A DNA stretch of 64,000 bases from positions 1-64,000 of the forward strand of contig NZ_JAPNXS010000008.1 of the NCBI RefSeq assembly GCF_030397575.1. The letters run 5' to 3'. The stretch is from Psychromonas sp. 14N.309.X.WAT.B.A12 (GTDB lineage: Bacteria > Pseudomonadota > Gammaproteobacteria > Enterobacterales > Psychromonadaceae). This document shows, in pieces, positions 20,170 to 63,813 of this stretch. The position numbers and the translations under genes were made by a program. The notes below the pieces were generated by a model. The model made no database searches, was not told the DNA's origin, and worked only from the letters and a program-made list of their open reading frames with translations. Positions within the stretch are counted from its first letter, which is position 1, and each line of letters starts with the position of its first letter.

Positions 20170-21801
20170 TTAAAACCAACGTGTGATTTCTGGTGTTGAT
20201 GAGCTAGAGCCTGAGCTGCCTATATTCGTACTGGTGATTTGTTCATCAAAGTGAACGCCTGCACCGCCAGTTACCTTTAGATAATCACTACGTAAAGAGC
20301 CATAGATATCACCACTTGCTGTAACTTTGATTGCCGCATCGGGTGCATAAGCGGTTAAAAACATATCCGTTGAGCCAGACAAGGTAACACCATAATCATT
20401 ATTATCGCCGTCAGAGTCATACCCTGAGTATAGAATAAATGAATTTTCACCATCACTATTTACTGCCGAAGTAGCTGTATTACCATCACTATCTAAAGCA
20501 TATACACCACCATCAGCTGTTGTTGTAAAAGTACCTTCGGTGATAATGGTTAGCGTTGCGCCATCTTCCACATAAATTTTATCTTCAATAGAGGTATCCC
20601 CACTTAAATAGATAGTGACATTATTACCGCTTTCGATAGTGATTGTATTACCACTTTGAAAGCTATCAATACTCATCACATAGACTTCTGTTTCTTCACC
20701 TAAAAAGTCGATAGTTGCTGTTTCTGTATCAAAGCTATCTGTGGTGCCACTGCTTTTGTTATATGACTCTAGTCCTGTATCGGTAAATACATAGTCAGTG
20801 TAAGGCCAATAGGAAAAAGAGTAAGCAGTTGGAGAGACACTTCCTAAACTACCTACACCATCCGTTGTGTTGGCAAATTCACTGGCTAAATCTAATATGT
20901 CGCAAGTTTCAGTACCAACGTCACTAACTTGGTTTGTATCATAATAGGTTGCATTACTAACACTGCCATAACTAGGATAATTTAATTCACCACTATATGA
21001 AATCGGGTTATCAAAACTGTTCCGTATGGTGACATCGCCGTTGGCGCTAATACTATCCATTGTTGTTGAAGAGTAGGAGTTGGTGACATTACCGGTCGCC
21101 TGTGCGTTTCCATCAATAGATCCTGAGCTGCCTAAATCAATATTACCTGATACATGTGCATCACCTGAAATAGAAGCTGATCCCGACATGGTTAAGTCGC
21201 CATTAATCGACACACTTCCATCAATAGGTGAGCTGCCACTTAAAGTTAAGCCACTAGCATCTTCGTTTAATACTGAAACATCGCCATTATTACCTGGATT
21301 ACTGGAGTCATAAGCACCTTCGCTTGAATCATAGCTATCAATGGTGCCACTGCCTCCTAATGTTGCGCCATCACAGGTAGTAATTGCGCCAGTAAAGACT
21401 GAGTTTCCTGAAGAGGAAGTTAATGAAAATGATCCGCGCATTGCATATGTGCCATCGTAGTGAAAACCTGAGCTATTTATTTCTCTGATATCACTATCTA
21501 ACCAAGCATCAATATTGTGGTAATAACCACCAGAACTATTTTGTGCACTGTTCAATTGAGTCATCATATCATCGGTCGATAGGCTACTGTCTGTGCTGAG
21601 CATATTGTAAGCTTCAGCAAGTCCATTTTCAGCTTGTAACCGGGCATTAAGTTCTTTGGTATAATTACCCGCCATACGCTCTTGATTGAGGTTTTCTTGG
21701 ATGGTGTCGAACACAATTAAGCTACCGAGAAATGAGATCACTAATACGGTAATTAATGCAAAACCTTGGTTCTCTTTAGGTTGAGTGTTAGTGGTGTTCA
21801 T
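20170..21801 (-). CDS. Large PilX-like minor pilin with repetitive beta-rich tail
   Basis: A 543-residue protein starting with a type III (prepilin) signal, cleavage expected in ENQG/FALITVLVISFLG. Residue 5 of the mature form is Thr rather than the usual Glu. The PilX-like N-terminal stretch RMAGNYTKELNARLQAENGLAEAYNML follows. From about residue 130 onward it is Ser/Gly/Asp/Asn-rich, with short repeats such as GSxSIxGDxxxSGSxSIxGD, which look like rungs of a beta-solenoid. Typical PilX proteins are under 250 residues. The ATG at 21801 has AGGG eight bases upstream (21807 would put the site against the start). It is the last gene of the minor-pilin operon, in the place where others carry pilX and pilY1. 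Confidence 0.78.
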   Translation of the reverse strand: MNTTNTQPKENQGFALITVLVISFLGSLIVFDTIQENLNQERMAGNYTKELNARLQAENGLAEAYNMLSTDSSLSTDDMMTQLNSAQNSSGGYYHNIDAWLDSDIREINSSGFHYDGTYAMRGSFSLTSSSGNSVFTGAITTCDGATLGGSGTIDSYDSSEGAYDSSNPGNNGDVSVLNEDASGLTLSGSSPIDGSVSINGDLTMSGSASISGDAHVSGNIDLGSSGSIDGNAQATGNVTNSYSSTTMDSISANGDVTIRNSFDNPISYSGELNYPSYGSVSNATYYDTNQVSDVGTETCDILDLASEFANTTDGVGSLGSVSPTAYSFSYWPYTDYVFTDTGLESYNKSSGTTDSFDTETATIDFLGEETEVYVMSIDSFQSGNTITIESGNNVTIYLSGDTSIEDKIYVEDGATLTIITEGTFTTTADGGVYALDSDGNTATSAVNSDGENSFILYSGYDSDGDNNDYGVTLSGSTDMFLTAYAPDAAIKVTASGDIYGSLRSDYLKVTGGAGVHFDEQITSTNIGSSGSSSSTPEITRWF

Positions 21802-21815
21802 GTTCATTCCCTAAA

Positions 21816-22388
21816 CTATTCATTCAAGCCTAAAATGGCTTGGCGTTGTGCAAACATCATTTGTATTGAATCAGTTTCATCAGCTGGTGTAATAGTGATA
21901 GTTAATAAATTATCAGTAGTTGCAAAGCTTAATGTATCAATATTAGTACCAATAGCAGTAAAGCTTTTGCTGGCATCATCTAAACCCGCTGTTGTATATT
22001 CTGCACACATTAATTGTCCATCAGTCAGGCGATAGCTTTCATAATATTGGCTACTCATGCCATTACCTAAACAGCTGGTATAAGTTTCGCCTGTATCTAA
22101 ATTGTCTAGATTAAAAGTTAAATCTAATTGCTTGTAAGTATTACCATCACTACCAGTATAGGATTTATCATCCATTTCATCTGCTCGGTGTATTGCTCGG
22201 CTAAAAATTGAGTTACTAAAACGCAGTACTTCTTGTGTGTTTTCTAATTGCTGCGAGTAAGTTGAGGTTTCTTTTAAGCTTGAGAATACCGTTGCTATGC
22301 CTAATACAATCAACAATGACAAAGCCATTGCAATCATTAATTCAGTTAAACTAAATCCAGTTTGTTTTGCCTTATATAGTGGTTTCAT
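21816..22388 (-). CDS. pilW: PilW-like minor pilin
   Basis: A prepilin of 190 residues with leader MKPLYKAKQTG and mature start FSLTELMIAMALSLLIVLGIA. The glutamate at mature position 5 is present. The later sequence (KETSTYSQQLENTQEVLRFSNSIFSRAI) fits the PilW/GspJ-like family. Minor pilins form the tip complex that starts pilus assembly. I choose the ATG at 22388, eight bases after AGG, over GTG 22397, which directly abuts the previous stop. It belongs to the pilE-fimT-pilV-pilW-pilX-like operon. Confidence 0.82.
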   Translation of the reverse strand: MKPLYKAKQTGFSLTELMIAMALSLLIVLGIATVFSSLKETSTYSQQLENTQEVLRFSNSIFSRAIHRADEMDDKSYTGSDGNTYKQLDLTFNLDNLDTGETYTSCLGNGMSSQYYESYRLTDGQLMCAEYTTAGLDDASKSFTAIGTNIDTLSFATTDNLLTITITPADETDSIQMMFAQRQAILGLNE

Positions 22389-22397
22389 TTTATTCAC

Positions 22398-22814
22398 CTA
22401 TGGACAGATATCTGGAAAAACAGCTTGCACGGATACTTCATCTTCTACATCAGTTAAACGCTGATCACCCCAGTCTATGGTGATCTTTAATGTATTGGTA
22501 ATATCAAAGGTAGTTGGATCAAAAGTACGAGTAAATCCATCTGCTAAGGTTAAATCATCGAGCGCTTCAGAGCCATCTTTTAACTCACAAAGTGAATTCC
22601 AAATCTGTTCTACTGTATTGCTTGCCTCAATACTTGCTCGCGTATACTGGCTACTGCTTCGTGCATATTGCAGGCTTTTATTTTGTGTATAAGCCAAGCC
22701 TAAAACGGATAAAGCAGCAATTAGGATGGCAATCAGTAGTTCAATTAAAGTAAAGCCGCTCTGTTTGCTTTTTTGTTTACCATTATGTGTAACACGACTA
22801 AAGGAATCTTGCAT
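22398..22814 (-). CDS. pilV: PilV-like minor pilin
   Basis: A 138-residue prepilin with a fairly long leader (20 residues to KQSG) and mature start FTLIELLIAILIAALSVLGLAYTQ, glutamate at position 5. The segment after the helix (ASIEASNTVEQIWNSLCELK) is PilV/GspI-like. Its ATG overlaps the stop of the upstream fimT-like gene by one base (TAATG), so the two are coupled. A cysteine near the C-terminus (FPDICP) may pair with the one in SLCELK. Confidence 0.82.
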   Translation of the reverse strand: MQDSFSRVTHNGKQKSKQSGFTLIELLIAILIAALSVLGLAYTQNKSLQYARSSSQYTRASIEASNTVEQIWNSLCELKDGSEALDDLTLADGFTRTFDPTTFDITNTLKITIDWGDQRLTDVEDEVSVQAVFPDICP

Positions 22815-23278
22815 TAATTACAGTCTCCACTATCTGTGCTGATCTGAGTTTGGCCACTGCTATAAATGGATAAACAACGATATTCATCTTCCCAAGTAAA
22901 AGCGAGTTGCTCATTTTCTGCAAAACCCGTTTTTTGTACGGCAATGGATACTTCACTAGCACTACCAGCGGAGGGAACAATAGAGACTTGATCTGTAGCT
23001 AGGGTAATGGTTTTAATGGTGCTATCCGCTCCCGACACCTGATTTGTTAATGTCCAAGTTAAACGGTTGTTTGATGAAGTTAAGGTCACTTCTTCATTAC
23101 GTTTTAATGCTTCAGAGCGTGTTAATTGGTAAATACTTTGCACTTGGTTAACCGCAACGGAAATACTATTATCACGGATTAAAGCGGTCCAACTGGGAAT
23201 GGCGATTATGGATAAAATAATAACAATCGCGACGGTGACCATAAGTTCAATCAGTGTGAAACCATGTTGTTTGGTCAT
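22814..23278 (-). CDS. fimT: FimT/GspH-like minor pilin
   Basis: A 154-residue prepilin: very short leader MTKQHG, mature start FTLIELMVTVAIVIILSIIAIPSWTALI, then NSISVAVNQVQSIYQLTRSEALKRNEEVTL, typical of the FimT/GspH class. In some bacteria FimT-type pilins bind DNA during uptake. The ATG at 23278 has GGA seven bases upstream. An ATG at 23284 would make a four-base ATGA overlap with the preceding stop and is the alternative. Cysteines in YRCLS and GDCN can form a C-terminal disulfide. Confidence 0.82.
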   Translation of the reverse strand: MTKQHGFTLIELMVTVAIVIILSIIAIPSWTALIRDNSISVAVNQVQSIYQLTRSEALKRNEEVTLTSSNNRLTWTLTNQVSGADSTIKTITLATDQVSIVPSAGSASEVSIAVQKTGFAENEQLAFTWEDEYRCLSIYSSGQTQISTDSGDCN

Positions 23279-23280
23279 TA

Positions 23281-23703
23281 TCATTTCCAGCATCCAGAAG
23301 TGCTTGGCGTTTTGTTACCAAGATAATCAAAGGTTAAAGTGCCACAACTATCACTAGATTGGCTAGTGCTTGAAATAGGCACCGCTGAGATGGTGTACTC
23401 ATCATCCTCTAATTCACTAAAGCTTACCGTATAATAGTCAGTACTGAAGTCACTAGCCGTTGTGCTTGAACCGGAATAATCGCCATTACGAGAGTAGTAA
23501 CGTTCTAATTGTTGACTTAACTCAACCATTGATTGTTGTACTTCGTAACGATAACTTTTTTGCACTGCTGTGACATATGAAGCAAACCCAATTTGCGCTA
23601 AAATAGCGACAACGGCTATAACGATTAATAATTCAATAAGTGTAAAGCCAGTTTGCTTTTTTGCATATTGATACTTGCTTTTTGGGGGCCAAAATCTTGT
23701 CAT
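23281..23703 (-). CDS. pilE: PilE-like type IV (minor) pilin
   Basis: A prepilin with mature start FTLIELLIVIAVVAILAQIGFASYV after a TG cleavage site, then a globular domain ending with the disulfide-loop pattern SCGTLTFDYLGNKTPSTSGCWK. The start is uncertain. The ATG at 23703 gives a 19-residue leader. The ATGs at 23715 and 23769 are in frame but lack ribosome binding sites, and a TATAAT box (23773-23778, minus strand) would put the transcript start at about the 23769 codon. It opens the minor-pilin operon; as in Vibrio-type clusters, the PilE-like gene comes first and no pilY1 follows. Confidence 0.75.
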   Translation of the reverse strand: MTRFWPPKSKYQYAKKQTGFTLIELLIVIAVVAILAQIGFASYVTAVQKSYRYEVQQSMVELSQQLERYYSRNGDYSGSSTTASDFSTDYYTVSFSELEDDEYTISAVPISSTSQSSDSCGTLTFDYLGNKTPSTSGCWK

Positions 23704-45198: not shown

Positions 45199-45606
45199 AT
45201 GAATATCAAATTTGTTCGCACTGCCGCACTGGCTGCTTCACTATTTTTAGTACCAACAAGCTTCCAAGCTGCATTTGCTGCTGACTTTGGGAGTATTGCT
45301 ACTTCAAGTCTCGAAAAAGTAAATTCTGCAACAAGCAGTGCAGAAGAAAAAGTAAGCTCAGCAACGGCTAGCGCAGAAGATAAAGTAAGTTCTGTTGGTT
45401 CAAGCGCTGATAGCTCAAAAATCGATATCAACAGTGCATCGGTAGAAGAGTTAACCTCTGTTTCTGGTATCGGTACGTCAATTGCTGAAAAAATCGTTGA
45501 ATACCGTGAGCAATATGGTGACTTCACTGACTTAGCTGATTTAACTAATATCAGTGGTATAGGTAGTGCTACTTTAGCTAAGATCTTACCTTACTTAAGC
45601 CTATAA
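45199..45606 (+). CDS. ComEA-like helix-hairpin-helix periplasmic protein
   Basis: A 135-residue protein with a signal peptide (MNIKFVRTAALAASLFLVPTSFQAAFAA). A spacer of repeated S/A-x-AEEKVSSATAS units (about residues 38-72) follows. The C-terminal double helix-hairpin-helix domain, IDINSASVEELTSVSGIGTSIAEKIVEYREQYGDF, then repeats NISGIGSATLAKI. ComEA binds incoming DNA in the periplasm during natural transformation. The repeat spacer is longer than usual for small ComEA homologues. A GAAAATAAT stretch precedes the ATG. It is a single gene with its own terminator. Confidence 0.85.
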   Translation: MNIKFVRTAALAASLFLVPTSFQAAFAADFGSIATSSLEKVNSATSSAEEKVSSATASAEDKVSSVGSSADSSKIDINSASVEELTSVSGIGTSIAEKIVEYREQYGDFTDLADLTNISGIGSATLAKILPYLSL

Positions 45607-54063: not shown

Positions 54064-55494
54064 ATGTCTACACCAAAAAGTCCAAAAGCCGCTACTGTAA
54101 ATTATGATTATGATGCAATTGTTATTGGTACTGGCCCCGGCGGTGAAGGCTCTGCAATGAAGCTAGCAAAGGCGGGTAAACGTGTAGCTGTTGTTGAAAA
54201 ATATAGAGATATTGGCGGTGGTTGTACTCATTGGGGAACCATACCTTCGAAAGCATTGCGACATAGTGTTACGCAATTGATTGAATTAAAAAATAACGCG
54301 TTATTTACTAATAACTACCCACAAAAGCATGCTTTTACCTTTGCCGATGTACTTCGCCATACTCAGCAAGTGATTGGTCAGCAAGTTAAGATGCGCAGTA
54401 GCTTTTATAATCGTAATAACTGTACATTACATTTTGGCGAAGCATCTTTTGTTGATAACCACTCCATCAAAGTTAAAAATCCAGATGGTTCTGTGGAAAT
54501 CATTACTGCACAAGATATCATTATTGCTACTGGATCTAGGCCTTATCACCCTACTGATATTAATTTTGAAGCCGCCAATATTTATGATAGTGACACTATT
54601 TTGTCATTGGATTATCAGCCTAAAAATATTGTTATTTATGGTGCGGGTGTTATTGGTTGTGAATACGCTTCTATTTTTAGAGGCTTAAGTGTTAAAACTG
54701 ATTTAATTAATACTCGAGATAGGTTGCTATCTTTTTTAGATGCCGAGATGTCCGATGCTTTGTCTTATCACTTTAGAAATTCAGGCATTATTCTTCGTCA
54801 CGATGAAGAATATAAAAAAGTAGAAGCTACAGCAGAAGGAGTGGTTATTCACTTTAAGTCTGGTAAAAAAATGAAAGCAGATTGTTTACTCTATGCAAAT
54901 GGTCGTACCGGTAATACTGACTTATTAAACCTTGAAGCAGTTGGCTTAACACCCGATGGGCGAGGCCAATTAGCGATTAACGAGCATTATCAAACCGCTG
55001 TGGATAACATCTATGCTGTTGGTGATGTAATTGGTTATCCAAGTTTAGCTAGTGCCGCTTATGATCAAGGACGTATTGCCGCCAACTTAATCATTACACG
55101 TGAAGGTAATAAAAAGCTAATTAAAGACATCCCAACGGGTATTTTTACTATTCCTGAGATCAGTTCAGTGGGTAAAACGGAACAAATGTTGACTCAACAA
55201 AAAGTCCCTTATGAAGTTGGTCGAGCGCAATTTAAGGATTTAGCACGTTCACAAATTCTTGGCTCTGACGTGGGTAGTTTGAAGATCTTATTTCATCGTG
55301 AAAGCAAAGAAATTTTAGGTATTCATTGCTTTGGCGAAAGAGCAGCGGAAATCATTCACATTGGACAGGCCATCATGGAGCAAGAAGGGGCAGGTAACAC
55401 CATTGAATACTTTGTACGTACTACATTCAACTATCCAACCATGGCTGAGGCATACCGAGTGGCAGCTTTAAATGGTTTAAATAGATTATTTTAA
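54064..55494 (+). CDS. sthA: Soluble pyridine nucleotide transhydrogenase
   Basis: A 476-residue FAD flavoprotein that oxidises NADPH with NAD+. FAD-binding [18 protein letters not shown], the [17 protein letters not shown] segment with a single cysteine (Thr replaces the second redox Cys of Lpd-type enzymes), [13 protein letters not shown], and [20 protein letters not shown] are all as in SthA. The start TATGTC has a TTGAGGTTG site. It is a single gene. Confidence 0.97.
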
Positions 55495-55548
55495 GGTCAG
55501 TTTTGTAGGTGAATATGTGGGCAGTTTAGATGATGCTGCCCATTAAAT

Positions 55549-56100
55549 TTATCGATAGTTCTTCATAACCCATAATAGAGCACTGATACAACGTGCTTCT
55601 TGAAAGTCATCTCTATTCAATAACTCATCTACTTTACTAATTGGCCACTTGATCACTTCTAATGGCTCAGGCTCGTCACCGACTAAGCGTTCTGAGTATA
55701 AATTTTTAGCCATAAATAAGGTCATTTCACTGCTAAAGTAACTCGGTGCCATCACCACTTTTCTTAACTCAGTAAACTCCTTTGCACCATAACCCACTTC
55801 TTCTTTAAGTTCTCTATTAGCTGCTTCCATAGGTGTTTCACCTGGGTCAATGAGACCTTTTGGAAAGCCTAATTCATAGCTATGAGTACCAGCAGCGTAC
55901 TCACGAATTAAGAGAATAGTGTCTTCGTCATAAAAAGGAACCACTAATACAGCACCTTGTGTGCTACTTTTCATGCGTTCAAATTCCCGCTGTTCACCGT
56001 TACTGAATTTAAGTTGTAATGTTTCAATTTTAAAAAAACGACTGCATGCGGCAACACTCTTACTTAATATAGTTGGTAAAATTGGTGATGAATTACTCAT
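55549..56100 (-). CDS. nudE: ADP compounds hydrolase NudE
   Basis: A 183-residue Nudix hydrolase. The Nudix box GLIDPGETPMEAANRELKEEVGY (GX5EX7REUXEEXGU) is intact near residues 80-102. NudE cleaves NADH, ADP-ribose and diadenosine polyphosphates. It lies downstream of mrcA on the same strand with a terminator between; in E. coli nudE also neighbours mrcA. Confidence 0.93.
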   Translation of the reverse strand: MSNSSPILPTILSKSVAACSRFFKIETLQLKFSNGEQREFERMKSSTQGAVLVVPFYDEDTILLIREYAAGTHSYELGFPKGLIDPGETPMEAANRELKEEVGYGAKEFTELRKVVMAPSYFSSEMTLFMAKNLYSERLVGDEPEPLEVIKWPISKVDELLNRDDFQEARCISALLWVMKNYR

Positions 56101-56173
56101 AGCTGCCTCGTAATGTTAAATAAGTAGTGTTGATACATAACGTACCATTGAATGCCATGACTATTAATCAAAA

Positions 56174-56209
56174 TAGTAAAAAGCTTACAACTATACATTG
56201 TAAGCTTTT
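56174..56209 (-). terminator. mrcA terminator
   Basis: Twelve-base stem AAAAGCTTACAA/TTGTAAGCTTTT, seven-base loop, and on the minus strand a following TTTTTACTATTTT. Confidence 0.88.
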
Positions 56210-56232
56210 CAGTTACTGTTAACGGTCGCTAT

Positions 56233-58806
56233 TTAAAATAGCTCATCATCATAGATAGTCCCGCCTGTTTGCGAGTCTGAACTCCCATAAATAGGTTCTG
56301 GTACATAATCTGTTGGGATATGATCTGCTCTGAAGAACTCAAATAACGTTGATTCATCTGTTGCTGTGGATAATAACCCAGTAGCCGCATCGATTCGCAC
56401 TGTTGAAATAGAGGCAGGACGTTCAGGTTTATACTCAGGTTTATCTTTCATTACCTTACTCATGAACATGTTCCATGCTGGTGATGCCGTTCTACCACCG
56501 AATTCCCCGCCTGCTACCTGGTTCCTGCCTAGATTATTATTGTAAGCTGCGCGACCTAGTTCTCGATTAAAGTCATCAAAACCTACCCAGGAAGTGGCTA
56601 CCATGTTACCTACAAAACCAGAGAACCAAGCATCTTTTGAGTCATTAGTGGTACCTGTTTTACCGCCCATGTCTTGTCTACCGATTGCACGTGCTGCTCG
56701 CCAACCAGTACCATTCCAGTTAGTTTTATTTTTCCTATTACCGCCACCCCATACAGCCGTACGTAATAGCTCTCGAACTAAAAATGCAGTATCAGGAGAA
56801 ATTGCTGATTCAGCTATTTGTGAGCGGCTTACAGGAGAGATTGCGCAGACTTCTGCATTATGGTCATTAACTGTTTTAGTCGCTAATGGATTAGCCGCGA
56901 TTGCTGACGCTTGTGCTTGATATTCTTCAGCACATTTTGGACAAGCAATTTTAGGTTCTGCTTGATATAAAACAGTGCCGTATGCATCTTCAATGCGTTC
57001 AATAATATAAGGTTCTACTTTGTAACCGCCGTTAGCAATAATGGCGTAACCAGTTGCTAAATCGATAGGTGTCATTGATGCTGAACCTAAAGCAATCGAG
57101 TTACTTCTTGGCATATCATTTTCATTAAAACCAAATTTAGTCAGTTGGTCAATGACAGTGGTTAACCCTAAATCTTCAACTAAACGTACTGAGACAACAT
57201 TTTTAGATTGTCCTAGTGCTTGGCGTAAGCGAATTGGCCCTGCATAGACTGCAGGAGAATTTTTGGGACGCCATGCTGCACTGCCACTCCATTGGTTAAT
57301 CGGGGTATCATTAACCAAAGTTGCTAAGGTATAACCATTATCTAAAGCGGCTGAATAAATGAATGGTTTAATGTTAGAGCCTACTTGACGCTTTGCTTGT
57401 GTTGCACGATTAAACTTACTTTGCACAAAGCTATACCCACCAACTAATGAGGTAATGGCACCATCCTGTGGGTTTAAAGATACAAATGCAGAGCTAACCG
57501 CTGGGTATTGTGATAATTGTAGTTGTTTTGTTACTTTATTATCTTTAGTCACGTCAATTTGACGTACCCAGATCTGTTCACCTACTTTAACAATGTCGGC
57601 CGCTTTTTTCGGTGGCAAACCTTGTCTTGAATCGCTAATGAAAGATCGAGCCCAGCTTAATCCATCCCATTCAATGGTTGATTTTTGTTCTGCTTGACCT
57701 TTGATTAGTACTTCAATACTTTTGTCTTTTACTGCCATTACAACAGCGGGTTGTAACTTACCGAAGTTAGTTTCTTGAGCTAATGTCTTAGCAATCTTTT
57801 CTGTAGACCAAGCTGTTTCACCTTCTTCCCACAATACTTTTGTTGGACCACGGTAACCGTGTCGCATATCGTAGTTATGGGAGTTTTCAATAACAGCTTC
57901 ATTTGCTGCTTGTTGTGCTTCCCTGGTAATAGTGGTGTAAACATTAAAGCCTTCGTTATAGCTTCTATCTTTGCCATACAGTTCAATCAGTTTATTACGT
58001 GCTATTTCTGCGACATAATGTGCTGATAATGTGATTTCTGCACCATGATAGCGACTCAACACCACCTCATTACGTGCATCTTCATATTCTTTTTGCGAAA
58101 TATACCCTTCATCTAACATCCGCATTAATACAAGATTGCGTCGTTCTGTTGCATTTTCTACTGAATAGATAGGGTTTAAACGAGATGGGGCTTTAGGTAA
58201 GCCGGCTAGTACGGCCATTTCAGATAATGTTAAATCAGATACGTTTTTGCCGAAGTAAACTTGTGCTGCTGCGCCAACACCAAAAGAGCGATGTCCTAAT
58301 GCAATCTTATTAAGATACAGCATTAATATTTCATCTTTTGTTAAAATCTGCTCTATCTGTATTGCGATAAATATTTCACGAACTTTACGAAGAATTGTCT
58401 TTTCATTGCTTAAAAAGAAGTTTCGTGCAACCTGTTGGGTGATCGTACTTGCTCCTTGTTTCGCACTACCTGACATGATGTAAACACTCGCTGCACGCAA
58501 TATTCCGATTGGATCCATACCTACATGTTGGTAAAAACGACTATCTTCTGTTGCAATAAATGCATTTACTAGTTGATCTGGAATTTCTTTGCGTAATAAT
58601 GGGATACGTCGCTTTTCACCAAATTGAGAAATGAGCTCTCCATCTTTACTTAATACTTTCATTGGTACTTGTAGAGGTATATCTTGGATACTAGTAACAT
58701 CAGGTAGGTCAGACTTAAGTTGATAATAAATGACAAATACTGCGGCTACGCCAATAAAAGTCAATATAATAGCAACTAAAAAAAGTCTCTTGAGCCATTT
58801 CATCAT
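56233..58806 (-). CDS. mrcA: Penicillin-binding protein 1A
   Basis: An 857-residue bifunctional peptidoglycan synthase. A membrane anchor at residues 8-28 precedes the glycosyltransferase domain with TEDSRFYQHVGMD, GASTITQQVARN and KDEILMLYLNKIALG. An OB-like insert follows, then the transpeptidase domain with the SxxK motif in GSNIKPF, the SxN motif in QSKN, and KTGTT. A four-cysteine-like insert CPKCAEEYQ also occurs in E. coli PBP1A. It is divergent from pilM, the usual gammaproteobacterial arrangement. Start could be either of two adjacent ATGs. Confidence 0.95.
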   Translation of the reverse strand: MMKWLKRLFLVAIILTFIGVAAVFVIYYQLKSDLPDVTSIQDIPLQVPMKVLSKDGELISQFGEKRRIPLLRKEIPDQLVNAFIATEDSRFYQHVGMDPIGILRAASVYIMSGSAKQGASTITQQVARNFFLSNEKTILRKVREIFIAIQIEQILTKDEILMLYLNKIALGHRSFGVGAAAQVYFGKNVSDLTLSEMAVLAGLPKAPSRLNPIYSVENATERRNLVLMRMLDEGYISQKEYEDARNEVVLSRYHGAEITLSAHYVAEIARNKLIELYGKDRSYNEGFNVYTTITREAQQAANEAVIENSHNYDMRHGYRGPTKVLWEEGETAWSTEKIAKTLAQETNFGKLQPAVVMAVKDKSIEVLIKGQAEQKSTIEWDGLSWARSFISDSRQGLPPKKAADIVKVGEQIWVRQIDVTKDNKVTKQLQLSQYPAVSSAFVSLNPQDGAITSLVGGYSFVQSKFNRATQAKRQVGSNIKPFIYSAALDNGYTLATLVNDTPINQWSGSAAWRPKNSPAVYAGPIRLRQALGQSKNVVSVRLVEDLGLTTVIDQLTKFGFNENDMPRSNSIALGSASMTPIDLATGYAIIANGGYKVEPYIIERIEDAYGTVLYQAEPKIACPKCAEEYQAQASAIAANPLATKTVNDHNAEVCAISPVSRSQIAESAISPDTAFLVRELLRTAVWGGGNRKNKTNWNGTGWRAARAIGRQDMGGKTGTTNDSKDAWFSGFVGNMVATSWVGFDDFNRELGRAAYNNNLGRNQVAGGEFGGRTASPAWNMFMSKVMKDKPEYKPERPASISTVRIDAATGLLSTATDESTLFEFFRADHIPTDYVPEPIYGSSDSQTGGTIYDDELF

Positions 58807-59002: not shown

Positions 59003-60061
59003 ATGTTTTTTGGATTGAAAAAATTAGGTTCTCGCAGCGTTATTGGCATTGATTTTGGGTCAAGTTCAATAAAAGCCATTGCGATCTCAAAAGGACAAGG
59101 AACGTATCGCGTTGACGGTATCGCTGAGGCACCAGTAGCAAAAGGATTGATCGTTGATAATCGCTTTGAAGAAGTGGATAAAATCACCGCTATTCTTAAA
59201 CAAATTCGCCACAGCTTCCCTTCTAGTCTTAAAAATGTTGCGATTGCAGTCACTGGATCTGATGTCATTACTAAAGTCATGAAAATGAACGCTTCATTAG
59301 ATGAACTAGACTTAGAATCTCGTGTTGAAATTGAAGTCGAGAATAGCATCCCTTTCCCATTGGATGAGATATTTATTGATTTTGAAGTGATGGGGCCTAG
59401 CGAAAATGATAAATCATTAAATGACATTTTAGTGAGTGCTGCTCGGAAAGAGCGAGTTTTGTCCCAAGCTCAATGTGTTGATAATAGTGGATTAAAAACA
59501 ACGATTGTAGATATTGCCAGCCATGCTTTAGCACGGTCAGCAGAGGTGATTATGACCTCTGATGATTACAATCGAGGCGTTGCAGTAGTTGATATTGGTG
59601 CCTCGCAAATGATGCTGAATATTTTATATCAGGGGAATGTCATTTTTACCCGTAGTAAAAGTCACGGTGGAGGGCTTTGTAGTCAAATGCTCTCGGAGCG
59701 TTATGGCATGCCAATTCAAGAAGCTGAACAAGCTAAAATTAATGAGGACCTTCCTGTTGATGCCGAAGTCGATGTGATTACTCCTTTTGTTAATATGACT
59801 GTTAATCACTTACGCTTTGACTTACGCATGTTTACTAATGCACCTAATAATGTTGATGTGCAGAAGCTTATTCTGACAGGCGGTGGTGTGTTGATGAAAC
59901 CTTTAGCAAAACAATTGCAAGAAGAGCTTGAATTTGAAGTAGAAATTGCCGACCCATCGCTGGCACTTGAATGTAAAAGCGAAGAAGAAAATAAATTATT
60001 AAAAGAATCTGGGGCTAAATATATGATGGCTCTCGGGTTAGCATTAAGAGGCGTTTCATAA
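59003..60061 (+). CDS. pilM: Type IV pilus inner-membrane platform protein PilM
   Basis: A 352-residue actin-like cytoplasmic ATPase homologue: GIDFGSSSIKAIAISKG at the phosphate-1 loop and VVDIGASQMMLNIL at the phosphate-2 loop, with LTGGGVLMKPL near the end. It binds the N-terminal tail of PilN and connects the pilus motor to the PilNO ring. Its stop overlaps the pilN ATG by one base. First gene of pilMNOPQ, divergent from mrcA. Confidence 0.96.
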   Translation: MFFGLKKLGSRSVIGIDFGSSSIKAIAISKGQGTYRVDGIAEAPVAKGLIVDNRFEEVDKITAILKQIRHSFPSSLKNVAIAVTGSDVITKVMKMNASLDELDLESRVEIEVENSIPFPLDEIFIDFEVMGPSENDKSLNDILVSAARKERVLSQAQCVDNSGLKTTIVDIASHALARSAEVIMTSDDYNRGVAVVDIGASQMMLNILYQGNVIFTRSKSHGGGLCSQMLSERYGMPIQEAEQAKINEDLPVDAEVDVITPFVNMTVNHLRFDLRMFTNAPNNVDVQKLILTGGGVLMKPLAKQLQEELEFEVEIADPSLALECKSEEENKLLKESGAKYMMALGLALRGVS

Positions 60062-60618
60062 TGTCGAATATTAACTTACTGCCATGGCGCGAGAATTATA
60101 AAAAGCAGAAGAAAACAGCCTTCTTTATTATATTGGCTATTAGTGCCTTGGTGGCATTAGGTTTATCTTATGCTGGAAAAATGTATGTAGACTCCTTAAT
60201 TAATGCACAAAATGAAAGGAATCAATATTTACAAACAGAGACTATCATTCTAGATCGTCGTATTGCTGAAATCAGTGATATTAAAAAACAAAAAGCTGAA
60301 TTGGTTCGACGTATTAATTTAATTCAACAGCTTGAAGAGCAGCGAAATACGATTACAAGGTTTTTTAATACGTTACCTGAAGTAACTCCTCCAGGTGTTT
60401 ATACAAACTCTATCACCTTTGATAAAGGAAAAGCAGATGTTAGAGGGTTATCTGATTCAACAGGACAAGTAAGTAATATGCTAAGAAATGTTGATAGTTC
60501 AGGTTGGTTAGGTGACGCTGCGCTACCTTCCATTGTGAGTGGGCCAACAGAGCCTATCAAGTTATATAATTTTTCGATGAACTTTATTGTTCTACCTGAA
60601 GATGAAGACGGGAAATAA
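60061..60618 (+). CDS. pilN: PilN, type IV pilus alignment protein
   Basis: A 185-residue bitopic protein. The N-terminal cytoplasmic motif NINLLPWRENYKKQKK is the PilM-binding tail. A membrane helix (residues about 20-42), a coiled coil and a ferredoxin-like periplasmic domain follow. It pairs with PilO. The start is TAATG-coupled to pilM. Confidence 0.94.
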   Translation: MSNINLLPWRENYKKQKKTAFFIILAISALVALGLSYAGKMYVDSLINAQNERNQYLQTETIILDRRIAEISDIKKQKAELVRRINLIQQLEEQRNTITRFFNTLPEVTPPGVYTNSITFDKGKADVRGLSDSTGQVSNMLRNVDSSGWLGDAALPSIVSGPTEPIKLYNFSMNFIVLPEDEDGK

Positions 60619-60620
60619 TC

Positions 60621-61190
60621 ATGCATATTAATGATATGGATTTCGATAATGTAGGCAGTTGGCCTAAGTTGCATAAAACAGTGGTGATTGCCATTGTTTG
60701 TATTTTGTTGATTGGTGGTTTTTATTATTATGTTATTGAAGATCAGCTTAAGCAATTAGATAAAGTCGAAGCAAAAGAGTTAGCACTTAAAAATGAATTT
60801 AAAGTCAAAGCTGCATTATCTTCAAACCTTGAAGCATATCGAGAACAAATGACTGAAATTGAGGTAATATTAGCTGGATTAGTGAATAAATTACCAACCA
60901 AAAAAGAACTTGCTAGTTTATTAGATGATATTGGTTTTATTGGTGCAAATAACGGGTTGCAATTTAAAAGCCTTAACTGGGGTGTAAAAAAACAATTAGA
61001 GTTAGCAGAGGAAGTTCCAATAAGTATTAAAGTGGTAGGTACCTATGAGCAATTAGGTAAGTTTTCTGCAGACATCGCAGCTTTACCCCGTATTGTGATA
61101 TTAGATAATTTACGATTAAAGCATAATGATGAAAATACCTTAATGCTTGATATTGTTGCAAAAACTTACCAATACAAAGGACATAAATAA
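60621..61190 (+). CDS. pilO: PilO, type IV pilus alignment protein
   Basis: A 189-residue protein with a short cytoplasmic N-terminus, membrane helix near residues 22-42, coiled coil (LKQLDKVEAKELALKNEFKVKAAL) and a periplasmic domain with LPTKKELASLLDDIGFIGANNGLQFKSLNW. It forms heterodimers with PilN and contacts PilP. It starts two bases after the pilN stop and overlaps pilP by one base. Confidence 0.94.
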   Translation: MHINDMDFDNVGSWPKLHKTVVIAIVCILLIGGFYYYVIEDQLKQLDKVEAKELALKNEFKVKAALSSNLEAYREQMTEIEVILAGLVNKLPTKKELASLLDDIGFIGANNGLQFKSLNWGVKKQLELAEEVPISIKVVGTYEQLGKFSADIAALPRIVILDNLRLKHNDENTLMLDIVAKTYQYKGHK

Positions 61191-61708
61191 TGAAAAATTT
61201 ATTACCTTTACCTCTGGTTTTTTTACTTTTTTCTTGTTCTGAGGCAAACCTCGAAGACTTGAATCAGTTTGTTGTTGATACGAAATCTAAAGTTTATCCT
61301 GTGAAAAATGAAGTGCCTACACTGAAAAAAATCGACACTCTTAACTTTACACAGGCAGATGGAAGGAATCCTTTTTCTCAACCTAAGCTTGAAGTCATTG
61401 CAGAAGTAAAGGATACTCCTAAAAGTTGCCCTCAACCAAATTTTGAACGTAAAAAACAGGCGCTTGAGATGTATTCATTAGGGCAAATGCAAATGCGTGG
61501 CACCTTACTTAAGGACGATCAATTATGGGCGTTAGTACAAATATCTGGTAGTGAAGTACATCGTGTTAAGCCAGGAAATTATTTAGGGTTAAATTACGGA
61601 AAAGTACTAAAAATAAATAAAGAACAAATTGATCTGTTGGAGCTCGCACCAGATAAAAATGGTTGTTGGGAAGAACGGCTTACACAGATTAAATTAGTCT
61701 CAAAATAA
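61190..61708 (+). CDS. pilP: PilP lipoprotein, type IV pilus
   Basis: A 172-residue lipoprotein with lipobox LFSC (C16). The following linker and C-terminal beta-domain (SLGQMQMRGTLLKDDQLWALVQ...VKPGNYLGLNYGKV) match PilP, which bridges PilNO to the secretin PilQ. It is coupled to pilO by TAATG. Confidence 0.94.
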   Translation: MKNLLPLPLVFLLFSCSEANLEDLNQFVVDTKSKVYPVKNEVPTLKKIDTLNFTQADGRNPFSQPKLEVIAEVKDTPKSCPQPNFERKKQALEMYSLGQMQMRGTLLKDDQLWALVQISGSEVHRVKPGNYLGLNYGKVLKINKEQIDLLELAPDKNGCWEERLTQIKLVSK

Positions 61709-61734
61709 AGTTAATCAGGGATGAAACGGAAATC

Positions 61735-63813
61735 ATGAAATTATTAAATATAAAGCAAATTGCGCTGTTGAGTATTAGTAGCCTTTTGCTCATTTTATCT
61801 CCTTTTGCAGTTGCCGAGTCGCAATTGGTTAAATTAAACGTTAATCCTCTTTCAGAAGGGAAGTTTGAATTAAAGTTTGAATTTAATGAAGCCATCAGCA
61901 GTTATACTGATAAATTAAATTATCGCCCAAATAAACTGGTTATTGATGTCGCGGACGCGAGCTCTTTGCTTGAGTTAAACCCTATTACCATTGATAAAAA
62001 TGGTGTTAAAACCGTTGAAGCTGAACGTATGAGCGAAGGGTTACGTTTAACTATCAATATTGAAGAGCTAATGCCTTATTATGTTGCGGAGCAAGGTAAG
62101 AATTTAGTAGTCCGTTTCGGGGATACTCAACAAAAATCTGCTGCTACAGAATCTGAATCAGCGATTGCAGCTGCAATCATGCAAGAATCTGGTGATCAAA
62201 CTGCACAAAATACATTAAGTGAAGCGGCTGAAAAAGCACGTAAAGCAGCATTAATTGAACGTCCTAAAGGCTATGTTAATACCATCGCAGATATCGATTT
62301 TAAACGCGGATCTGAAGGCCAAGGTAAATTATTTGTTTATCTAGATAACTCTAGCGTTGCTGTCGATATTAAACGTCGCGACCAACAGCTTATTGTAGAA
62401 TTTCAAAGTACATTTATTCCTGATGATTTCTTATACATCATGGATGTGGTCGATTTTGCCACGACTGTGAATAAAATTGAGACCTTTCGTGAAGATGGTA
62501 CAACGCGTTTTGTTTTCAACATCAAAGACGAATACAACTATCGCTACGATCAACTAGATACCTTATTCATGATTGAAGTGTCTAAGAAACCTGAAGATGA
62601 AGCTGATGCGCCATATGAAGGTAAGGCTATCTCGCTTAACTTCCAAGATATTCCTGTACGTACAGTGTTACAGTTAATTGCTGATTTTAATGGTTTTAAC
62701 TTAGTTATTACTGACTCTGTAAGCGGTAATATTACATTGCGTTTAGATGATGTTCCATGGGAACAGGCATTAGATATTATCCTAAAAGTACGTGGTTTAG
62801 GTAAGCGTATGGATGGTAACGTATTAATGGTTGCTCCTGCATCCGAACTAGCAGCTTCTGAGCGTCAGCAATTAGAGTCTAACAATGAGGTTGCTGCGTT
62901 AGCTCCATTATATTCAGAGTTTATTCAAATTAATTACGCAAAAGCTGAAACTATCGCTGCATTATTATCTGGTCAGAGTGCAAGCTTACTTTCTGAACGC
63001 GGTAATGTAACAGTAGATACGCGAACTAATATTCTATTGATTAAAGATACTGCTGCGGTGATTGATTCTGTTAAAGAAATTATCGAAGTATTAGATGTTG
63101 CTGTTCGCCAAGTCGTTATTGAAGCGCGTATGGTTACTGTTAGTGATTCTGTTGCAGAAGACTTAGGGGTAAGTTGGGGGCTAGATACAGACTCTGCAAG
63201 TTCTGATTCAAGATTGAATACGCTAGATGTAAATCTACCAGTTGCTTCATCAGCGGGTACATTAGGCTTCCAAATCGCAACGTTAGCTAATGGTAATATT
63301 CTAGATTTAGAGTTATCAGCGTTAGAGCAAGAGAGTAAAGCGGAGATTATTGCGAGTCCTCGTATTACAACGCTTAACCAACAAACTGCTTATATTGAGC
63401 AAGGTACCGAAATTCCATATGTTGAATCTTCTTCATCAGGTGCAACGACGGTGAGCTTTGAAAAAGCAGTATTAAGCTTACAAGTAACACCACAGATAAC
63501 GCCGGATAACAAATTGATCTTAGATTTAGTTATCACACAGGACTCTGTTGGTGAAACGGTAACAACTAGTGATGGTGAGTCAGTATCTATTGATACACAA
63601 GAGATACAAACTCAAGTGTTAGTTGATAATGGTGAAACCCTTGTTTTAGGTGGTATCTACCAACAACAAATCTCAGATACGATCAGTAAGGTGCCAGTCT
63701 TAGGTGACATTCCTTATTTAGGTTACTTTTTTAGAAACTCGGTTACTGACAATACAAAATCAGAGCTACTCATTTTTGTTACACCACGTATTGTGATGCA
63801 AACAAAATACTAA
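61735..63813 (+). CDS. pilQ: Type IV pilus secretin PilQ
   Basis: A 692-residue outer-membrane secretin with signal peptide (to about AVA/ES). Two AMIN peptidoglycan-binding domains (about 30-130 and 190-285) are followed by an N0/STN domain (ISLNFQDIPVRTVLQLIADFNGFNLVITDSVSGN), N1 (IQINYAKAETIAALLSG) and the secretin C-terminal (IIASPRITTLNQQTAYIEQGTEIPY...VPVLGDIPYLGYFFRN). It forms the pore through which pili extend and retract, and DNA can enter in competent cells. A terminator follows. Confidence 0.96.
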   Translation: MKLLNIKQIALLSISSLLLILSPFAVAESQLVKLNVNPLSEGKFELKFEFNEAISSYTDKLNYRPNKLVIDVADASSLLELNPITIDKNGVKTVEAERMSEGLRLTINIEELMPYYVAEQGKNLVVRFGDTQQKSAATESESAIAAAIMQESGDQTAQNTLSEAAEKARKAALIERPKGYVNTIADIDFKRGSEGQGKLFVYLDNSSVAVDIKRRDQQLIVEFQSTFIPDDFLYIMDVVDFATTVNKIETFREDGTTRFVFNIKDEYNYRYDQLDTLFMIEVSKKPEDEADAPYEGKAISLNFQDIPVRTVLQLIADFNGFNLVITDSVSGNITLRLDDVPWEQALDIILKVRGLGKRMDGNVLMVAPASELAASERQQLESNNEVAALAPLYSEFIQINYAKAETIAALLSGQSASLLSERGNVTVDTRTNILLIKDTAAVIDSVKEIIEVLDVAVRQVVIEARMVTVSDSVAEDLGVSWGLDTDSASSDSRLNTLDVNLPVASSAGTLGFQIATLANGNILDLELSALEQESKAEIIASPRITTLNQQTAYIEQGTEIPYVESSSSGATTVSFEKAVLSLQVTPQITPDNKLILDLVITQDSVGETVTTSDGESVSIDTQEIQTQVLVDNGETLVLGGIYQQQISDTISKVPVLGDIPYLGYFFRNSVTDNTKSELLIFVTPRIVMQTKY

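Follow-up and report, generated by a model that had tools for sequence, protein, structure and literature searches.

An oversized PilX-type pilin in a PilY1-free minor-pilin cassette of Psychromonas, probably an alternative tip for a type IVa pilus

What a pilus does is largely set by the protein that occupies its tip, and a minor-pilin locus of Psychromonas sp. 14N.309.X.WAT.B.A12 raises the question of which protein takes that place. In the 64,000-nucleotide stretch that we analysed (contig NZ_JAPNXS010000008.1, positions 1 to 64,000; hereafter the window), five prepilin genes follow one another on the minus strand (20170-23703) in the order pilE-fimT-pilV-pilW-pilX*. The last encodes an oversized PilX-type minor pilin, which we call PilX*, and neither the operon nor the rest of the window holds pilY1. 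A reading made from the sequence alone had proposed that the repetitive tail of PilX* is a beta-solenoid that may replace PilY1 as tip adhesin or primer. Our answer is somewhat different: the cassette is probably a second, self-contained set of genes for an alternative tip on the one type IVa machine of the cell, and PilX* would be its modular, probably adhesive outermost pilin.

The cassette and its oversized pilin

Open reading frames and domain searches bore out the gene order and the tight packing noticed at the outset: pilE and fimT overlap by 13 bases and fimT and pilV by one, pilV and pilW abut, and 8 bases separate pilW from pilX*. Scans for promoters and terminators found sites no more numerous than in shuffles. 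A class III prepilin site and Glu5 are found in each of the products of pilE, fimT, pilV and pilW (4/4), and all four match N_methyl. PilX* has a class III site as well, NQG/FALITVLV, whose Gly is invariant in 40 relatives, and position 5 of its mature form is Thr; T, K, S and others stand there in the 40 aligned relatives, with Glu not seen among the commonest residues. Most PilE, FimT, PilV and PilW proteins have Glu5, and PilX* lacks it. Because PilX* has a prepilin site and lacks Glu5, it would occupy the outermost (PilX/GspK) place of the priming complex; PilX and GspK are themselves without Glu5 and are placed at the pilus tip.

PilX* is 545 residues long from its first ATG and 543 from its second, the latter being the length first reported for it. 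In the domain search it did not match N_methyl; PilX_N was matched instead (residues 14-63), together with a short stretch of Bactofilin (190-242) and DUF7305, each scoring below its curated cut-off here. PilX_N (PF14341; E 7.2e-6) falls slightly under its cut-off in hmmscan and over it in a six-frame search of the whole genome, where DUF7305 also exceeds its own. Among the 40 relatives PilX_N reaches E <= 1e-3 in 21, and DUF7305 is present in 39. A Pfam search found no match to the PilY1 beta-propeller (PF05567), DUF6701 or LamG within PilX*.

The Ser/Gly/Asp-rich short repeats described in the tail were confirmed and recur with a period of 18 residues (z 3.6 for the window protein; mean z 2.5 over 40 relatives). 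Cys145 and Cys302 are kept in 40/40 relatives, most of which have no further Cys, and Gly positions are likewise invariant. Compared with the 91% identical copy of Psychromonas sp. B3M02, the dN/dS of pilX* is 0.043 overall; taken part by part, it is 0.042 for the pilin region, 0.014 for the solenoid and 0.058 for the linker together with DUF7305. The gene is functional, with strong purifying selection acting on each of its main parts, and its tail is therefore no loose repeat filler.

Structure prediction agreed with the suspected beta-solenoid. An AlphaFold2 model of the window protein, built from 40 aligned sequences (predicted local distance difference test, pLDDT, 80.3; predicted template modelling score, pTM, 0.69), has an N-terminal pilin helix, three strands that begin the pilin sheet, a run of short regular strands, a beta-rich DUF7305 part and a last short strand (Table 1). 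A second model, of a Shewanella fidelis relative that is 27% identical in the alignment, has a pLDDT of 85.7, with values of about 90-98 across most of the solenoid; the two models have most alignment rows in common and are not fully independent. The strand spacing and the 18-residue sequence period fit a beta-solenoid, and the tail is predicted to be ordered and solenoid-like, not disordered. In ComZ-like pilins the solenoid is inserted ahead of the last strand of the pilin sheet, after the penultimate one; in both models a C-terminal strand follows the head of PilX* and is a candidate for that last strand.

The best Protein Data Bank match of both models is ComZ of Thermus thermophilus (6qvi), which takes ranks 1-3 in each (best E 2.7e-5 for the window protein, 5.1e-5 for the Shewanella relative). 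Weaker structural matches were to tapirin adhesin domains, Ag43 and ice-binding proteins, and a viral structure library gave no useful match to the PilX* model. The PilX* sequence profile also weakly matches ice-binding proteins of the FfIBP type (E 0.007-0.05). The resemblance is weak in both sequence and structure, and we set aside ice binding as a function for two reasons. Shewanella and Rheinheimera, two of the genera that carry PilX* relatives, are not restricted to cold habitats. The authors of the ComZ study named FfIBP-type proteins as relatives of the ComZ solenoid too, and found no functional link for that likeness (PMC6561018).

One machine with two minor-pilin sets

A pilY1 gene elsewhere in the genome would tell against replacement, as the sequence-only reading itself held, and one was found. 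The sole PF05567 protein of the genome (1502 aa) is encoded on another contig (G000:C23) in a canonical cluster with the order ileS-lspA-fkpB-ispH-fimT-pilV-pilW-pilX-pilE-pilY1, in which PilX has 160 residues. This ispH-linked arrangement is close to the canonical Pseudomonas type.

A search of the genome for pilus ATPases found one PilB, beside pilA and pilC, as well as PilT, PilU, another PilT-like protein and the GspE of a type II secretion system (T2SS) with five pseudopilins; MshE was not found. Since there is a single PilB and no MshE, both cassettes share one machine. Together with the pilMNOPQ genes of the window, these findings amount to a lone type IVa machine that is provided with two sets of minor pilins. 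Myxococcus offers a precedent, with three minor-pilin/PilY1 clusters and one machine (PMC7541494). A relation of the cassette to a mannose-sensitive haemagglutinin (MSHA) pilus was ruled out in this genome, there being no MshE and no second DUF7305 protein.

Other pilin-like genes lie scattered in the genome. Beside the gene for a 224-aa prepilin lies that of another oversized PilX-like prepilin, 464 aa long and with no Pfam match (locus L167, 1982-3376; G000:C39, about 54980-56380); this protein is kept in other Psychromonas (L050, L051), and its first ~115 residues align with the PilX* profile (hhalign probability 93). A FimT-like and a PilW-like prepilin form a pair isolated from other pilus genes (L163, 2330-3483; G000:C41). 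The window also encodes, at 45199-45606, a small ComEA-like helix-hairpin-helix protein with an apparent signal peptide, which makes natural competence conceivable in this organism.

Table 1. Positions of the cassette genes, the parts of PilX* and the pilus machine genes in the window
Feature	Position	Strand	Basis or remark
pilE, first cassette gene	23281-23703	-	ATG at 23703, longer frames possible; Pfam ComP_DUS E 8.8e-17
fimT, GspH/FimT-type minor pilin, 159 aa	22814-23293	-	Pfam GspH E 8.4e-9; no GRxR motif
pilV, minor pilin with Glu5, 138 aa	22398-22814	-	TIGR02523 E 8e-12, below its cut-off
pilW, minor pilin with Glu5, 193 aa, GTG start	21816-22397	-	Open reading frame and domain search
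pilX*, oversized PilX-type minor pilin, 545 aa, DUF7305 at end	20170-21807	-	Open reading frame and Pfam
PilX* residues 14-72, N-terminal pilin helix following NQG/FALIT, Thr5 not Glu5	21592-21768	-	AlphaFold model; alignment of 40 relatives
PilX* residues 95-130, pilin sheet strands one to three	21418-21525	-	AlphaFold model
PilX* residues 142-271, predicted beta-solenoid, turns of ~18 residues	20995-21384	-	pLDDT mostly 83-93; 18-residue periodicity; weak ice-binding-protein profile match
PilX* Cys145-Cys302 span, possible disulfide	20902-21375	-	Both Cys invariant in relatives
PilX* residues 382-525, DUF7305	20233-20664	-	Pfam
PilX* residues 538-544, strand at the C-terminus that may complete the pilin sheet	20176-20196	-	Strand in both models; return to sheet presumed
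pilM-pilN-pilO-pilP-pilQ, type IVa machine core presumably served by the cassette	59003-63813	+	Open reading frames; PilM_2 E 1.2e-107; N, O, P and Q named by order and sequence

Relatives and rival explanations

Scanning relatives with one genome per species, we found 80 pilX* loci in Psychromonas, Pseudoalteromonas, Shewanella, Motilimonas, Colwellia, Rheinheimera, Photobacterium, Alteromonas and some Aeromonadaceae bins. The four small pilin genes pilE-fimT-pilV-pilW stand ahead of pilX* in 71/80 loci, or 75/80 if four are counted in which the pilin in the fimT place is labelled pilE; of the other five, three are pilX* genes standing alone (L061, L070, L118), one lies on a truncated contig (L075) and one is a cassette that lacks a pilE match (L132). 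No locus has pilY1 inside the cassette (0/80). The cassette is found at unrelated chromosomal places and its neighbourhood varies by genus, so it acts as a unit, and the distances of pilX* correlate with those of pilW (Mantel r 0.91 when its pilin part is compared and 0.79 when its tail is; 0/2000 permutations). When the class was sampled evenly (369 genomes), full-length matches to the pilX* profile came from this genome and one other (G144) only; most further matches fell on the N-terminal pilin region in PilX-like frames of ordinary size.

Two arrangements in relatives deserve separate mention. Several Psychromonas (L041, L048, L039, L046) have two to four pilX* genes, differing in length, in tandem beside one cassette, which suggests an expansion or repertoire of tip heads. 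In a metagenome bin (L128), the cassette and then a separate canonical fimT...pilY1 cluster stand side by side behind ispH, possibly the ancestral arrangement.

An alternative tip fits these observations better than a replacement of PilY1. PilE, FimT, PilV and PilW would form the usual minor-pilin priming complex, topped by PilX*. The head, made up of the beta-solenoid and DUF7305 and probably tied by the Cys145-Cys302 pair, would be too bulky for the filament body and would be carried at the tip. There PilX* may both cap the pilus and prime it, and may attach to a surface or polysaccharide, doing in one polypeptide what PilX and PilY1, or MshP and MshQ, do in two, and the cell could build one pilus with either of two tips. 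A surface or polysaccharide is the favoured ligand because the charge of the tail and a DNA motif missing from FimT, both taken up below, speak against DNA in this species.

Several observations weigh against this proposal. The template modelling (TM) scores to ComZ are 0.16-0.28, and the likeness is therefore one of local fold and order of parts only, not of overall shape; a search of the Protein Data Bank with the PilX* profile also gave no sequence link to ComZ at E up to 1. In one relative (G020) the cassette has been lost from the same dtd/M16-peptidase site, where the remnant is a pilX* end joined to a piece of pilE (L043, 7078-7760); this genome has another cassette elsewhere (L044). 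PilY1 is encoded somewhere in 32/36 cassette-bearing genomes, and because most carriers keep it the added value of the cassette is not evident from genomics alone. The cassette could also be silent under most conditions.

That the cassette is instead a full substitute for the PilY1 cluster, its solenoid head serving as both primer and adhesin, is the strongest rival, and we regard it as unlikely. It draws on two complete single-contig genomes, G144 and G006, which have PilM and pilX* genes (several of the latter in G006) and no match to PF05567, a model that detects the beta-propeller only and that a very divergent PilY1 might escape. G144 encodes a 597-aa fusion of PilX and DUF7305, which matches the window protein at 25% identity across 353 residues (E 2e-20), in its ispH-linked minor-pilin locus, the normal site of pilX-pilY1. 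Replacement is plausible in these two genomes, but PilY1 is kept in the Psychromonas genome studied here and in most other carriers. The sequence-only reading is thus supported in part: the predicted ordered solenoid, the PilX slot, the missing Glu5 and ComZ as nearest solved structure agree with it, while the C23 cluster and the retention of PilY1 among carriers speak against a displacement of PilY1 in this genome.

PilX* might also be a ComZ-like competence pilin, a receptor at the tip that binds DNA for natural transformation, with adhesion and motility left to the PilY1 cluster. ComZ, its nearest solved structure, binds DNA (PMC6561018), the cassette resembles the Thermus locus with its four small pilins and comZ, and the ComEA-like protein of the window would suit such a role. 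We nevertheless consider it rather improbable: the tail is strongly acidic, with a net charge of -51 and 7 Lys/Arg (mean of relatives -23), and the DNA-binding motif GRxR is absent from the window FimT and from 74/74 proteins labelled FimT or FimT2 at relatives' loci. Nor does PilE help. The Pfam model ComP_DUS strongly matches all three PilE-like pilins of the genome that were tested (in the window, and at L002, 8404-8820, and L166, 2436-2837); for this reason its name is no evidence for DNA uptake sequences, and we set aside PilE as a ComP-type uptake receptor, the match being uninformative.

Less probable again is a role of the cassette in priming some filament other than the PilA pilus, made perhaps of a different pilin encoded in the genome. 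Further isolated prepilins do exist on C41, C39 and C23, but these are FimT-, PilW-, PilV- or PilE-like and form no second major-pilin operon, and the ATPase search gave a single PilB-type extension ATPase and one T2SS GspE, with none of the MSHA type. A tail that arose by repeat expansion as mere low-complexity filler, with no specific function, is suggested by its composition, its short repeats and the tandem pilX* copies of some relatives, and is made very improbable by the constraint on its solenoid part, the invariant Cys and Gly positions and two ordered models.

Known systems and wider meaning

If the alternative-tip reading is true, a second, PilY1-free tip on one machine could let marine bacteria switch pilus specificity without a second pilus system, and the ComZ type of tip pilin would extend from Thermus to common marine proteobacteria. 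DUF7305 would gain a role as a head carried at the PilX place, uniting MshQ and PilX*. Natural genomes without PilY1 make pilus priming by the head alone directly testable. More tentatively, there may be a third kind of type IVa tip besides the PilY1-capped and the small-pilin-only ones, in which PilX, or the neighbour of the PilX-like MshP, carries a DUF7305/beta-solenoid head; the five-gene cassette would be exchanged between genomes, giving two interchangeable tips per machine beside PilY1 and replacing PilY1 in some lineages.

Modular pilins as a kind are already known (PMC8179133), and so is one with a solenoid, ComZ. The apparent novelty lies in a PilX-solenoid-DUF7305 type that recurs among proteobacteria, in the fixed set of five genes that makes up its cassette, in the presence of PilY1 alongside it and in the connection with MshQ. 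No paper on DUF7305, or on PilX of Pseudoalteromonas, came up in a literature search, which is weak evidence given the many subscription papers outside its reach. The survey of modular pilins began from the N-terminal signature IPR012902 (PMC8179133); since PilX* matches PilX_N and not N_methyl, its group was likely missed there. The pilins described in it, such as PilB and PilC of Streptococcus sanguinis and CofB of enterotoxigenic Escherichia coli (ETEC), resemble PilX* in carrying a functional module on a pilin that structural modelling places at the tip, and differ in that their modules are von Willebrand factor A (vWA), lectin-like or beta-sandwich domains (PMC8179133).

ComZ comes closer. 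It is a beta-solenoid built into a GspK-like pilin without Glu5, binds a neighbouring pilin and DNA, and has been argued to fit only at the pilus tip, where it is the proposed receptor (PMC6561018). PilX* shares with it a similar length (the 6qvi chains have about 500-518 residues), a locus with several small pilins, the lack of Glu5, a proposed tip position and, by prediction, an ice-binding-type beta-solenoid in a pilin framework. Unlike ComZ, PilX* has a recognisable DUF7305 and PilX_N and a very acidic tail, and its hosts are proteobacteria, mostly with PilY1 as well.

A third comparison is with MSHA pili. In five MSHA operons that we examined, MshQ, encoded directly after mshP, matches DUF7305 (E 2.7e-7). 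MshQ is a putative MSHA adhesin at the tip, and its loss lowers surface MSHA (PMC7096442). As in PilX*, DUF7305 is encoded at the PilX place of the operon, but MSHA operons have one gene for the pilin (MshP) and another for the DUF7305 protein (MshQ), which in addition has LamG and DUF6701 domains. PilX* resembles a single protein that unites MshP with the first domain of MshQ; a profile comparison with MshQ N-termini aligned 52 solenoid columns only, and the shared Pfam DUF7305 is the better evidence. Finally, the cassette has the same minor-pilin set and a similar gene order as the PilX and PilY1 systems of Pseudomonas, of Myxococcus and of the C23 cluster in this genome, with a PilX slot without Glu5 and a presumed tip and priming role. 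It differs from them in that the cassette has no PF05567 beta-propeller and the head is fused to PilX itself.

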